From Lampris incognitus (Eukaryota > Chordata > Actinopteri > Lampriformes > Lampridae), in the NCBI RefSeq assembly GCF_029633865.1, contig NC_079230.1, positions 32,569,358 to 32,633,357 on the forward strand: 64,000 nt of DNA, written 5' to 3'. A program made the position numbers and the translations under genes. Below the pieces are notes generated by a model that had not been told where the DNA came from, did not search any database, and worked only from the letters and a program-made list of their open reading frames with translations. Position 1 is the stretch's first letter. The number at the start of each line of letters is the position of its first letter. This document shows, piece after piece, positions 51,721-59,487 of this stretch.

Positions 51721-54700
51721 TCAACACACTTTGCTGACTTGACTGATTTAGCCAAACCTCCACCGGTGGAGGGAGGAGGAGGCCCGTCATTCTACGCGAT
51801 AATTCTCGTAATGGTCTTGCTAGGCCATCACGCTATTGTGTAATAAAACGGGTCTGTACAAAAAAAACGATTCGAACATCGTACGATTTTTGTGTGTTTT
51901 AAAGGTAATATAGCAACGCACACAACTGCCAAGTGTGTTTTTTCGGTTAGACCTCGACCAGCCTTTCTGCTAGGGGGGTTTTCCTCCTCCTCCTCCTCCT
52001 AGCGAGCGAGCGAGCCGACCATCTTGGATGCCTGAATTAGAAATGGCGGACCAGCAAAGACTCGGCGGAGGCCTTGCTCCTCTAACCCGATGCGTTGCTC
52101 TGCTTTCGTAGTTTGCGCAGCGGTGGATCTTTAGTTTATTTTGCCATAACAGGATCCCAGTGAAAATCTCAGTTTCCTTCAGTCCGCTTTACAAGTACGC
52201 AGAACGAAGAATTTCAGCCCTACAAACGGAGACACGGAGTCGTTGCGTAATAGTCCTGTCACACTGGGCAGGCGTTTCAGCGTTACACACTGTAAAATGG
52301 AAGGATGCCACATTAAGAAGTGATCACTGTTTGCCATTCATTTCTGTTTTGTTGTCTGCAGAGACAATGGCCCCGAGGGCATGGAGCCAGATGGCATCAT
52401 TGAGGTGAGTCCTGGTGTACCTTGAAAAGATCAAAACTAGAATCACGCTATACATTTCTAGCTATCAACAAAGCTGGCAAATGGCGAACACAGTTCCATA
52501 GTAAATTTGTGTGTCGTGAAGGTAGTATTAAGCTTCTTCCCTATTTTCACTGATTACCTTTTTCTTACACCCCCCAACCATCTTTGTGCTTGCAGAGCAA
52601 CTGGAACCAGATTGTGGATAGTTTTGATGAGATGAACCTGCGTGAGGCTCTGCTCAGGGGAATCTACGCATATGGTTTTGAGAGGCCCTCCGCTATCCAG
52701 CAAAGAGCAATTATCCCTTGCATCAAGGGTGAGTAAGCAGCATTTAATGAACCCAACCTGATAACTTTACACTGCCTTGGTCGATTATTTGTAATGGATT
52801 TTTGGTGTAGTTAGGACGTTTTCTAATAATGCAAATGTCTGACAAACACACGCGCGCACACACACCCCTGCCACTGGGCAAGGCAGTGTCCTTTTATGGC
52901 ACTGAGTCTTATATCTGGTAGGGGAAGAGGGAAGCAGTCCATTTTCATCCCAGTCAGCTCTGTTCAGTGAGACATGGTTGGTTCATGCAATGGGCACAAA
53001 GCTGTTTGTTGAAGTCTTCTTTCTTGTACGTCAAATTTGGCATGCTGGGAAGACCTACAGTAAGGTTGGTGCGTCTTTTATTCCTACAGGCTATGATGTG
53101 ATTGCACAGGCTCAGTCGGGGACTGGGAAGACGGCTACATTTGCCATCTCCATCCTGCAGCAGATTGATGTGGAGATGAAGGCCACTCAGGCCCTTGTCC
53201 TGGCCCCTACCAGGGAGCTGGCTCAGCAGGTAGGTTAATGTGATCAAGGAACTGTGACTTGATTGATTATGAGCTTTGTATTTTGCCAGAATAATGGCAG
53301 CATCTGAGTAACATTGCTGAAGTCCCCCATTTATGCTCAAAGTACAAACTTTAACTTGCTAAACAAGGCAACAACTGGTTTTGTCCAATGGCTATTATTA
53401 ATCAGGGTGGGTTTCCCATGGTATAGGATGTTAAATTGTTATAACTTTCCGAAGCATGTTTTAGCCGAAAAAGTTTGAAGTATTTTTGTGAATCTTGTAT
53501 ATTGATATCGGGAAGCCCACCAGGCAAGCTTTTTAACCCATGTCATTTAACACTTGACTTAATGTATAGTGCTTATTAATTTTTCTTCCCTCAGATTCAG
53601 AAGGTGATCCTGGCCCTGGGGGACTACATGGGTGCAGGTTGCCATGCTTGTATTGGTGGAACCAACGTCCGCAGTGAGGTTCAGAAGCTTCAGGCTGAGG
53701 CCCCTCACATAGTGGTGGGCACCCCTGGCCGAGTCTTTGATATGTTGAACCGCAAATTCCTCTGTAAGTGACCTGTGGAAGAAAGAAAAGTGTGTTTTGC
53801 TATAGATGTCCATCTGAAGGTCTTCAAAGTTATTAGAGAGCAGGTTAACAATATAAACTCAGAATTGACTAGATTGTTCATTGCCATGCAAAACAGCCTG
53901 CAATTTCATGTTACCTTGGAGTAAAACTGAAAGATGTATTGGCTTGTTACTGGTGTATGGTTGTGACCAATGAAATGGCTGTATTATGATGAAATCCATG
54001 CGTGTCAACTGAGTTTGGAAGTCCCTGAGGGTTCTGTTGCCTCGATCAGCGTTCTGCAGGTCGGCGTGTCCAGAACAACAGGGTTCCAGACCAATGATCA
54101 GAGACTTTACTGCCTGAATACAGCTTCAAAACCTATGACACACTAGCTTTGGAGACCTTCAGTGGTAAAGAAGTGTAGCTTGTTTGGTCGGGATTTCAGG
54201 TTTCTCTTATTGTCCCATAGCCATAAGGAGACTTATACAGCCTTGAGATTTATATACCCTTATATAAGGAGATTTGTATACCCTTGGAACGAAGGCTGCA
54301 ACTTTTTTTTTTTTTTTCTTCCCTCAATTCACTATCGAATATTTTCAGATTAGTCGATTAATCATTTGGTTAACTTAATAACTTCAACCATTCAAATATT
54401 TTCTCATAAAAATACTTATTTTACAAATTAAAATTTCTCTTCAAAAAGTGCCAAGAATTAAAAGGCATCTAACGACAATATAAATGTCCATTATTCCAAC
54501 TTAAATTGAGCTTAACTTAAGAGGTGCAAAAAACTGTAGGGCATCGTTCACTTAAAACAGTATTCATAAGTCCAACATGAAATCAGCCCAGCAAAATTGC
54601 CAAAAAAAGACTTGAAGGCATGTATTGGTAATTGGAATGTTGATCAGTTCAAGTAACTGTTCAAAAGAGGTTGATAATCTAAAAACAAAAAATCTGAATC

Positions 54701-57700: not shown

Positions 57701-59487
57701 TCCCAGTCAGCTCTCCTCAGTGAGACACTAGACTGCTTCATGCTATGGGCACGGTATGTTCCGGCTTGTTGCTAGTTGTTTGAGTCAACATCTACCCTTT
57801 TCTAAATATTTAACCATTTTAAAGACCCTTTTTAGATGGCCTGCTCCTGTGGCAATGAGCTACAATGATCACTTGTAATGTTTCTGCTGTTAAGTCCTCA
57901 TGGGTACTGGTCCCTCTATGGCATCAGTAAACTGAAATGAAATTCTAACTGAACACCGATGCATACAAATTACAGAGGGTTCATTTGCCCAAAACATTAT
58001 ATTCGAATATTTGAAGAACTTGGGGTGTTGACTGAATCCACCACAGGATGGTTGTAAGAATGCAGTGAATAGTGAAGTGTGGCTGACAGTTTGTAAGCAG
58101 CTGTGCATCTGGAACAGGCCTGGGACAAATTGGACTGCACTGCTGTGGTGACAAGTGTTAAACATGTTCCCTTGTGCGTGCGTGTGTGTTTGTTTTTGTT
58201 TTAGCATGGAGACATGGAGCAGAAAGAGAGAGACCTGATCATGAGGGAGTTCCGCTCTGGCTCCAGTAGAGTCCTCATCACCACGGACCTGTTGGTATGT
58301 ACTGCCAGCCATTGTGTGCACACAGCTAACAGTTTGAGGTGACTGACATGAAGCTGTGGCTGGACGCGTCAATCTTTTGGTCAAAAGTACTTGAGGTTTA
58401 AAATCGGCATGGACAGCTAACACAAGTGTGATAGGGCTGATGTTGATCATCTAGAATAGCAGCCATAGCCTGTAGTATCTACGAGTGCAGTTGTAAAACA
58501 TTTCATCCTCTAGTGGGTTTCTGTTCTGCCAGGTAGTTTACTGCTTTTTAGTGGTTGTGCCAGGTAACAAGCCTTACTGGCTCAAATACCTGGCACTATA
58601 TGACACTACAGGCCAACAGGAGGAGCTGCAGAATAGAAAACCAGCAGTACTTAAGTGGTACCTTAGAACTGGATTGAGAACCACTGCCCCTAGTGGTTGA
58701 TATGCGAGCAACATGTGCTACAGTTTTTCACAATATGGGCTGGTCCCCCAAGGTTCCCTCTCCTCCCAGCTCCTGTGCTGGTGAAGGACTGAATGTTCCT
58801 TGGTAGAGAAACCTTACTGCTCTCCACAGTGACCTGGGCCTCGCAATCCCACGTTGCAACTTAACAGCAGAGGACACAAAACCCCACAGATTTCACTCCA
58901 CCAAATATATACATATATAAGACTTGTTAACTTGACTGCACATTTTGTTTGCAAAGGATTCTTTGCACCAGCGTTAAGTTCTACATAGTGTAACCTTGAA
59001 AAACTGTTAAAACTTGTTGAACTTGATAACTTGTCAAAAGTGAGGCCCCGTGTATGGGTGTTTCCACGTGCGTTCTTTTGTTCTGTTCTGTTCTGTTGCT
59101 GAACCTGTGTGACTGACAGTGTTTTTGTGTGTTCCCTACTTAAGGCTAGAGGGATTGATGTCCAGCAAGTGTCCCTGGTCATCAACTATGACCTGCCCAC
59201 CAACAGGGAGAACTACATTCACAGGTACTTCTTTTAACACAACCTGCGTATTGGTTTGACCATGATGTGTTTTGATAAGTTTACATTAGTCACTGATCCA
59301 CCTGTGTCTGATCTTACCTGTGTTGGCGCTTCTTTCTCCCAGGATTGGTCGTGGAGGTCGTTTCGGCAGGAAAGGTGTGGCTATTAACATGGTAACTGAG
59401 GACGACAAGCGCACCCTGAGAGACATTGAGACCTTCTACAACACCACCGTTGAGGAGATGCCAATGAATGTGGCTGACCTTATCTAG
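50971..59487 (+). CDS. eif4a1: Eukaryotic initiation factor 4A-I (11 coding exons)
   Basis: ATP-dependent RNA helicase of the eIF4F complex that unwinds mRNA 5' UTRs for ribosome loading; cytoplasmic. Exons: 50971-50993, 52362-52404, 52596-52728, 53090-53229, 53595-53763, 56378-56487, 56759-56902, 57062-57199, 58205-58294, 59145-59224 and 59343-59487. Total 1215 nt, 404 residues plus TAG; human is 406. All phases agree. DEAD-box motifs: Q-motif Gln57 region (PSAIQQ), motif I AQSGTGKT (74-81), Ia PTRELA, DEAD 180-183, SAT 211-213, ARGID after 331 and HRIGRGGR 356-363. Some residues ([14 protein letters not shown]) look eIF4A2-like, but YIKMF, GIRQFY and the senp3 neighbour favour eif4a1. Very strong conservation; no damage seen. 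Confidence 0.97.
52863..53001 (+). ncRNA. Putative H/ACA snoRNA in eif4a1 intron 3
   Basis: About 139 bases. Hairpin 1 is closed by CCCCTGCCA (52865) and TGGTAGGGG (about 52916-52924). A short purine-rich hinge follows (AAGAGGGAA, a weak H box). Hairpin 2 is closed by GTCCATT (about 52937) and AATGGGC (about 52989). ACA at 52996-52998 lies three bases from the inferred 3' end. This is the standard H/ACA layout, and human EIF4A1 introns also host H/ACA snoRNAs (SNORA48, SNORA67). A second copy in intron 8 keeps hairpin 2. The target site is not determined. Confidence 0.7.
53764..54299. other. eif4a1 intron 5, 5' part
   Basis: Unique sequence. ATGATGA (about 53985) followed by CTGA at about 54012 and 54028 resembles C and D boxes, but the spacing is short and no closing stem is visible. 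Confidence 0.35.
55479..55832 (+). mobile_element. tRNA-derived SINE, family C (copy 7, forward)
   Basis: Forward copy in the hAT pseudogene. About 65 bases spanning box B are missing, as the head jumps from GGTCTATTCC straight to AGCTTGGTCGGG. Diverged target duplication AGAATGAACTCTTC/AGAATTAACTGTTC at 55465 and 55833. Confidence 0.87.
56000..56200 (-). mobile_element. tRNA-derived SINE, family C (copy 8, truncated)
   Basis: Reverse copy that stops after GCGTGGGAGGATC, so the tRNA-derived half is absent. Confidence 0.87.
57222..57476. mobile_element. Possible piggyBac-like MITE in eif4a1 intron 8
   Basis: The left end follows TTAA (57218-57221): CACTAGAATGACCAAGGCGG. The right end GGTCGTTTTAGCTAGGAGTG is its imperfect complement. 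A similar core occurs near 31350. There is no coding capacity. Confidence 0.4.
57659..57755 (+). ncRNA. Partial second copy of the H/ACA snoRNA in eif4a1 intron 8
   Basis: Shares GCCACTGAGCAAGGCAGTGT and TTCATCCCAGTCAGCTCT with the intron 3 copy, but lacks about 40 bases of hairpin 1. Hairpin 2 closes with CCATA/TATGG where the other copy has CCATT/AATGG, so pairing is kept by a double change. The ACA box reads ACG here. It is either a degenerate copy or a divergent gene. Confidence 0.55.
58557..58605 (+). ncRNA. Possible structured RNA hairpin in eif4a1 intron 9
   Basis: A perfect 10-bp stem GTGCCAGGTA/TACCTGGCAC has a 20-base loop holding AGCC/GGCT. ACA follows six bases after the stem. 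A third GCCAGGTA lies at 58528. It could be the 3' half of an H/ACA RNA or a MITE part; the evidence is thin. Confidence 0.3.

Follow-up and report, generated by a model that had tools for sequence, protein, structure and literature searches.

Among box H/ACA small nucleolar RNAs (snoRNAs), the closest described counterpart of the element considered here is SNORA48 (ACA48, Rfam RF00554), which resides in EIF4A1 in human and rat. Its target is listed as 28S-3797 and its human host as SENP3-EIF4A1 in a review table (PMC6466398), human 28S position 3797 is given as Psi-m at 100% in a mass-spectrometry map (PMC6182160), and a rat study places SNORA48 in an intron of Eif4a1 that it gives as intron 4. 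Intragenic (cis) duplication of snoRNAs has been described in chicken, where many paralogues keep their guide regions and structures (PMC2653536), and motif (box) quality, stem stability, and host expression are presented as drivers of snoRNA expression (PMC10234308). Here, we analyze a window of 64,000 nucleotides from the fish Lampris incognitus (NC_079230.1, positions 32,569,358 to 32,633,357, forward strand; contig C26 of the 1.48-Gb assembly), in which introns 3 and 8 of eif4a1 carry related sequences, referred to as copy 1 and copy 2; a third, copy 3, lies on another contig in an intron of eef1g.

When these sequences are compared with one another and with the known family, it appears very probable that copy 1 is the fish SNORA48, that copy 3 is a second full-length copy, and that copy 2 is most likely a pseudogene undergoing decay. 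The evidence that carries this interpretation consists of homology, a family match below the curated cut-off, the fit of the guide pocket, the lesions in copy 2, and the presence of the element at three places by DNA search.

A SNORA48-like RNA in eif4a1

The host gene was assigned as eif4a1 on the basis of its joined exon translation, whose best matches are eIF4A-I chains from end to end. Copy 1 resembles SNORA48 in this host gene and intronic location, in its two hairpins, in a match that runs the whole length of the family model, in the guides TTCATC (52944-52949) and TTCATGC (52982-52988) of hairpin 2, and in an ACA box placed three bases from the 3' end, which is here the end of the model (53001) and not a mapped RNA end. 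Fourteen nucleotides, counted by eye, separate the upper stem from ACA. Hairpin 1 of copy 1 is about 53% identical to the Rfam consensus (31/59). When thresholds are relaxed to E ≤1, the other match in intron 3 is one trypanosomatid H/ACA family (E 0.31).

The hairpin 2 guides are common to all three copies, and those of copies 1 and 3 pair over 7+6 bp with GCATGAA-[UG]-GATGAA in 28S-derived DNA of this genome, with a score of 26 against 16 for the next-best site in a scan that covered two 9.9-kb stretches around the 28S-derived fragments. This target stretch occurs at two places in the genome, C24:25615237, where a fragment of 429 nt matches LSU_rRNA_eukarya of Rfam with 210 bits, and C18:47765550, which is 28S-derived as judged by eye. 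The target stretch probably corresponds to human 28S position 3797. For the hairpin 1 pocket of copy 1, the same two stretches yielded weak sites only. A scan of viral contigs for the 28S target gave 0 matches, and the one viral-contig match to an 18-mer of hairpin 2, which lacked the 3' guide within the 201 bases inspected, was set aside as chance.

Both 28S fragments lead into similar stretches that, by eye, seem derived from a tRNA in antisense, and each could belong to a composite repeat resembling a short interspersed element; on C24 this arrangement lies at 1100-1750 of the sequence read, in which ARAGORN found no tRNA.

A second full-length copy in eef1g

When copy 1 together with its 3' flank was used as a DNA query against the genome, three places were returned, namely, copies 1, 2, and 3. 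No further place emerged when copy 2 or copy 3 served as the query, copy 2 retrieving only itself and copy 1; this type of search skips very common words and scores only the best candidates, such that more diverged copies are possible. Copy 3 lies at about C1:13568814-13568955 on the minus strand and is 85% identical over query positions 2-139. It is in sense in its intron, and the downstream exons match the EF1G family (E 1.6e-43). Its match to the SNORA48 model also runs from end to end (33.6 bits, E 3.6e-5), its hairpins have z scores of -2.41 and -2.01, 56 of 60 positions of hairpin 1 are identical with copy 1, and, unlike copy 1, it has an H box, AAAGAA, that fits ANANNA by eye. A search of the 1.48-Gb genome with RF00554 at E ≤10 gave only copies 1 and 3 (E 0.59 and 0.03), with 41 of 118262 candidates scored. 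In the sequence read around copy 3, which occupies 3457-3315 there, a stretch downstream at 2100-1400, likewise on the minus strand, resembles, by eye, a fragment of a reverse transcriptase from a long interspersed element.

The second full-length copy sets the fish apart from human and rat, and it suggests that two translation-factor genes, eif4a1 and eef1g, carry one and the same guide RNA. Because this further copy is found in a different gene, the arrangement looks like the ordinary duplication and decay of a guide RNA. It would also extend SNORA48 to a fish whose copies the Rfam cut-off would miss. Among the titles and abstract openings surveyed, none described a fish SNORA48, a duplication of one, or a snoRNA in an eef1g intron.

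A partial copy in intron 8

The relationship between the two eif4a1 copies is visible in two common blocks whose order is kept, one of 24 nt (52868-52891/57661-57684, 96%) and one of 41 nt (52934-52974/57687-57727, 93%). A local alignment of intron 3 with intron 8 scores 134, whereas none of 300 Markov-shuffled controls scores above 81. We also built a covariance model, R1, for which copies 1 and 3 were combined with the Rfam consensus, with copy 2 excluded and E values roughly calibrated; over the window at E ≤10, it finds copies 1 and 2 and nothing further, with copy 1, itself among the building sequences, scoring 157 bits.

Between the blocks, about 40 nt are absent from copy 2, among them the apex and the 3' side of hairpin 1 together with the H-box region, and ACG (57751-57753) stands where copy 1 has ACA. 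Copy 2 therefore lacks the full box H/ACA set of two hairpins, H box (none seen by eye), and ACA box; the z score of its hairpin 1 remnant is 0.14. In hairpin 2 and the tail there are four substitutions private to copy 2 at positions where copies 1 and 3 agree, of which one falls in the loop, one keeps a pair, one breaks the closing pair of the upper stem, leaving a C.C mismatch at its base (57703/57736), and one is the ACA-to-ACG change; the deletion and small indels come in addition. The 28S site is recovered for copy 2 only if the C.C mismatch is counted within the upper stem, and it was not found in the two 9.9-kb stretches when the pocket was opened there.

These results confirm what an earlier sequence-only reading of the window had observed and support its interpretation in part. 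That reading had proposed related elements in introns 3 and 8, the first with both hairpins and a correctly spaced ACA and the second with part of hairpin 1 lost and ACG in its place. Its description of an H/ACA-like RNA is likewise borne out for copy 1 by the covariance search, which gives SNORA48 at full length, albeit below the cut-off. A family match for both elements did not materialize, as, of the two, only copy 1 is matched by the Rfam SNORA48 model, and no snoRNA family was matched in intron 8 (1006 bases at E ≤1; 141 bases at E ≤10). SNORA67 (RF00272), which that reading had singled out beside SNORA48, is not among the matches at E ≤1 in intron 3 or intron 8 and was rejected as the intron 8 RNA. 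Over the genome at E ≤10 it has one match, at C11:51127561-51127691 (28.5 bits, E 0.83, cut-off 45), which is not in eif4a1; sub-cut-off matches to SNORA67 also occur in 6 of 14 control genomes.

As in the cis-duplicated chicken snoRNAs, the paralogue occupies another intron of the same host gene; guides and structures are maintained in many of the chicken paralogues, whereas copy 2 is damaged (PMC2653536). Copy 2 also resembles the unexpressed snoRNA copies with degenerate motifs treated in PMC10234308, with which it shares degenerate boxes and an intron of an expressed-type host. By the expression criteria given in that study, copy 2 would probably not be expressed.

The compensated pair in the closing stem

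The sequence-only reading had also pointed to a pair in the closing stem of hairpin 2 that changed on both strands, and this is plainly present: copy 1 has GTCCATT/AATGGGC (52937-52943/52989-52995) and copy 2 has GTCCATA/TATGGGC (57690-57696/57744-57750), with one pair differing on both sides. In an alignment of four rows (copies 1 to 3 and the Rfam consensus), copy 1 carries U-A at this pair (82/131), whereas copies 2 and 3 both carry A-U and the consensus has G-C. As copy 2 is nearest to copy 1 (51/59 identities in hairpin 2, compared with 45/61 with copy 3) and copy 3 shares A-U, parsimony would place the change of both sides on the branch of copy 1, after the duplication.

A compensatory change between two copies is unassignable without a third sequence, and here it speaks for the intact copy and not the damaged one. 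It supports constraint on copy 1 and is uninformative for copy 2; constraint on copy 2 was considered on this ground and rejected, since copy 3 has the state of copy 2. The selection on RNA structure that had been read from this pair is thus retained for copy 1 and withdrawn for copy 2, whose changes are mostly degenerative.

Expression, processing, modification, and the duplication route enter the following scheme as predictions, and the order of events follows parsimony. The RNA of copy 1 would be trimmed out of the spliced eif4a1 intron, and its hairpin 2 would direct pseudouridylation of the 28S uridine corresponding to human 3797. Copy 2 is a partial duplicate, closest to copy 1, that would have arisen through duplication in cis or short-range retroposition, and it has lost the 3' half of hairpin 1, the H-box region, and the ACA box. 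The compensated pair would have changed in copy 1 after that duplication. The duplication of a longer segment was rejected, as the flanks of copies 1 and 2 show no similarity in a coarse test with 5 shuffles per side.

Alternative explanations

Several observations weigh against the interpretation of copy 1 as fish SNORA48 and copy 2 as its relic, and they are considered here together with the alternatives. Neither copy 1 (28.3 bits) nor copy 3 (33.6 bits) reaches the Rfam gathering score of 50, and RF00554 also finds matches under the cut-off in 6 of the 14 prokaryote genomes used as controls, which means that such scores alone are no proof. As copy 1 is below the curated cut-off, we name it SNORA48-like and a likely orthologue rather than a family member by that threshold. 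By eye it has no strict ANANNA H box, with AGAGGG near the expected place, and all of the evidence is DNA sequence from one fish. It could be speculated that these sequences belong to a transposable element rather than a snoRNA family, with a borrowed SNORA48 match, as repeat-like sequence is common nearby (by eye) and retroposition is described as a source of H/ACA copies (PMC8178906). We consider this hardly credible, as the search described above found the sequence at three places only, the SNORA48 match is end to end and lies within the mammalian host gene of the family, and no exact target-site duplication of at least 6 nt was found within 40 nt of the ends; a transposon origin was rejected on the few copies and the lack of such a duplication. 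Copy 2 might instead still function as a reduced guide of one hairpin, in which ACG takes the role of ACA, and serve as a backup for the same 28S site. Indeed, both guides and the 7-bp closing stem are intact, neither of which a neutral relic need keep, hairpin 2 folds alone (z -1.57), and, by eye, ACG still lies at a distance of 14 nt when the C.C mismatch is treated as part of the stem. Against this stand the deleted H-box region and altered ACA, the loss of the 28S site from a pocket opened at the mismatch, differences spread evenly over loop and arms, and the reported role of motif and stem quality as main drivers of snoRNA expression (PMC10234308). Such a backup role is very unlikely, and the proposal that copy 2 represents a functional one-hairpin vertebrate H/ACA guide with ACG, kept for its guides and closing stem to direct 28S modification, is about as improbable.

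The double change in the closing pair could also be chance and no sign of selection on structure. Nine random substitutions produce at least one compensated pair (G-U allowed) in 12% of trials, or within the closing stem in 5.5%, and the pair change by itself is therefore weak evidence. Of 500 shuffles, 67 also reach the observed number of pairs altered on both sides, and 127 that of further pair types. However, the same pair takes a third Watson-Crick type in that consensus, and 90.2% of cells pair in the four-row alignment, compared with 85.4% in shuffles (reached by 0 of 500) and no more than 41.5% in slid versions. Four of the 500 shuffles reach the covariation score and 23 the number of cells changed on both sides, in statistics based on four sequences from which the structure was partly drawn. 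In hairpin 2, differences between copies 1 and 3 fall mainly in the loop (12 of its 20 positions, against 3 of 42 in the arms; Fisher p 1.6e-5), whereas those between copies 1 and 2 are even (3/20 and 6/42, p 1.0), which argues for constraint between the intact copies and none between copies 1 and 2. Set against each other, these comparisons differ at only p 0.036, on small numbers (9 differences between copies 1 and 2) and with loop and arm limits set after the alignment had been viewed. On balance, chance as the whole explanation is very unlikely, and the double change lends support to constraint on copy 1.

Features of the window

Coordinates are collected in Table 1. In folding energy, the whole eif4a1 elements are no improvement on shuffles (z 0.17 and 0.32), and single hairpins do better (z scores in Table 1); hairpin 2 of the Rfam consensus has z 0.41. 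SNORD10, a box C/D snoRNA, is the sole Rfam match in the window at gathering scores.

Table 1. SNORA48-like copies, their parts, and other features of eif4a1 (window coordinates)
Feature	Position	Strand	Basis or remark
Copy 1, full-length SNORA48-like H/ACA RNA	52863..53001	+	Rfam RF00554, 28.3 bits, E 6.3e-4, model 1-135/135
Copy 1 hairpin 1	52865..52924	+	Minimum-free-energy hairpin, z -2.64 vs 500 dinucleotide shuffles
Copy 1 hairpin 2 with guide pocket	52937..52995	+	z -1.17; 7+6 bp to 28S-derived DNA
ACA box of copy 1	52996..52998	+	Sequence; three bases before model end 53001
Copy 2, partial SNORA48 copy	57660..57753	+	R1 match 57656-57756, 41.8 bits, E 3.6e-10
Copy 2 hairpin 2	57690..57750	+	Guides TTCATC 57697-57702, TTCATGC 57737-57743; z -1.57
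eif4a1 intron 3	about 52729-53090	+	Ends placed by eye; contains copy 1
eif4a1 intron 8	about 57200-58204	+	Holds copy 2
SNORD10 (box C/D)	53981..54121	+	Intron of eif4a1 flanked by exons 5 and 6; Rfam RF01290 at 74.1 bits (gathering score 37)

Introns 5 and 8 of eif4a1 are seemingly swollen by repeat insertions (54350-56200 and 57200-57470, by eye). Within the latter, positions 57353-57399 on the minus strand are mir-19-like in a relaxed Rfam search (24.3 bits, E 0.053, cut-off 50) and probably represent a palindromic repeat.

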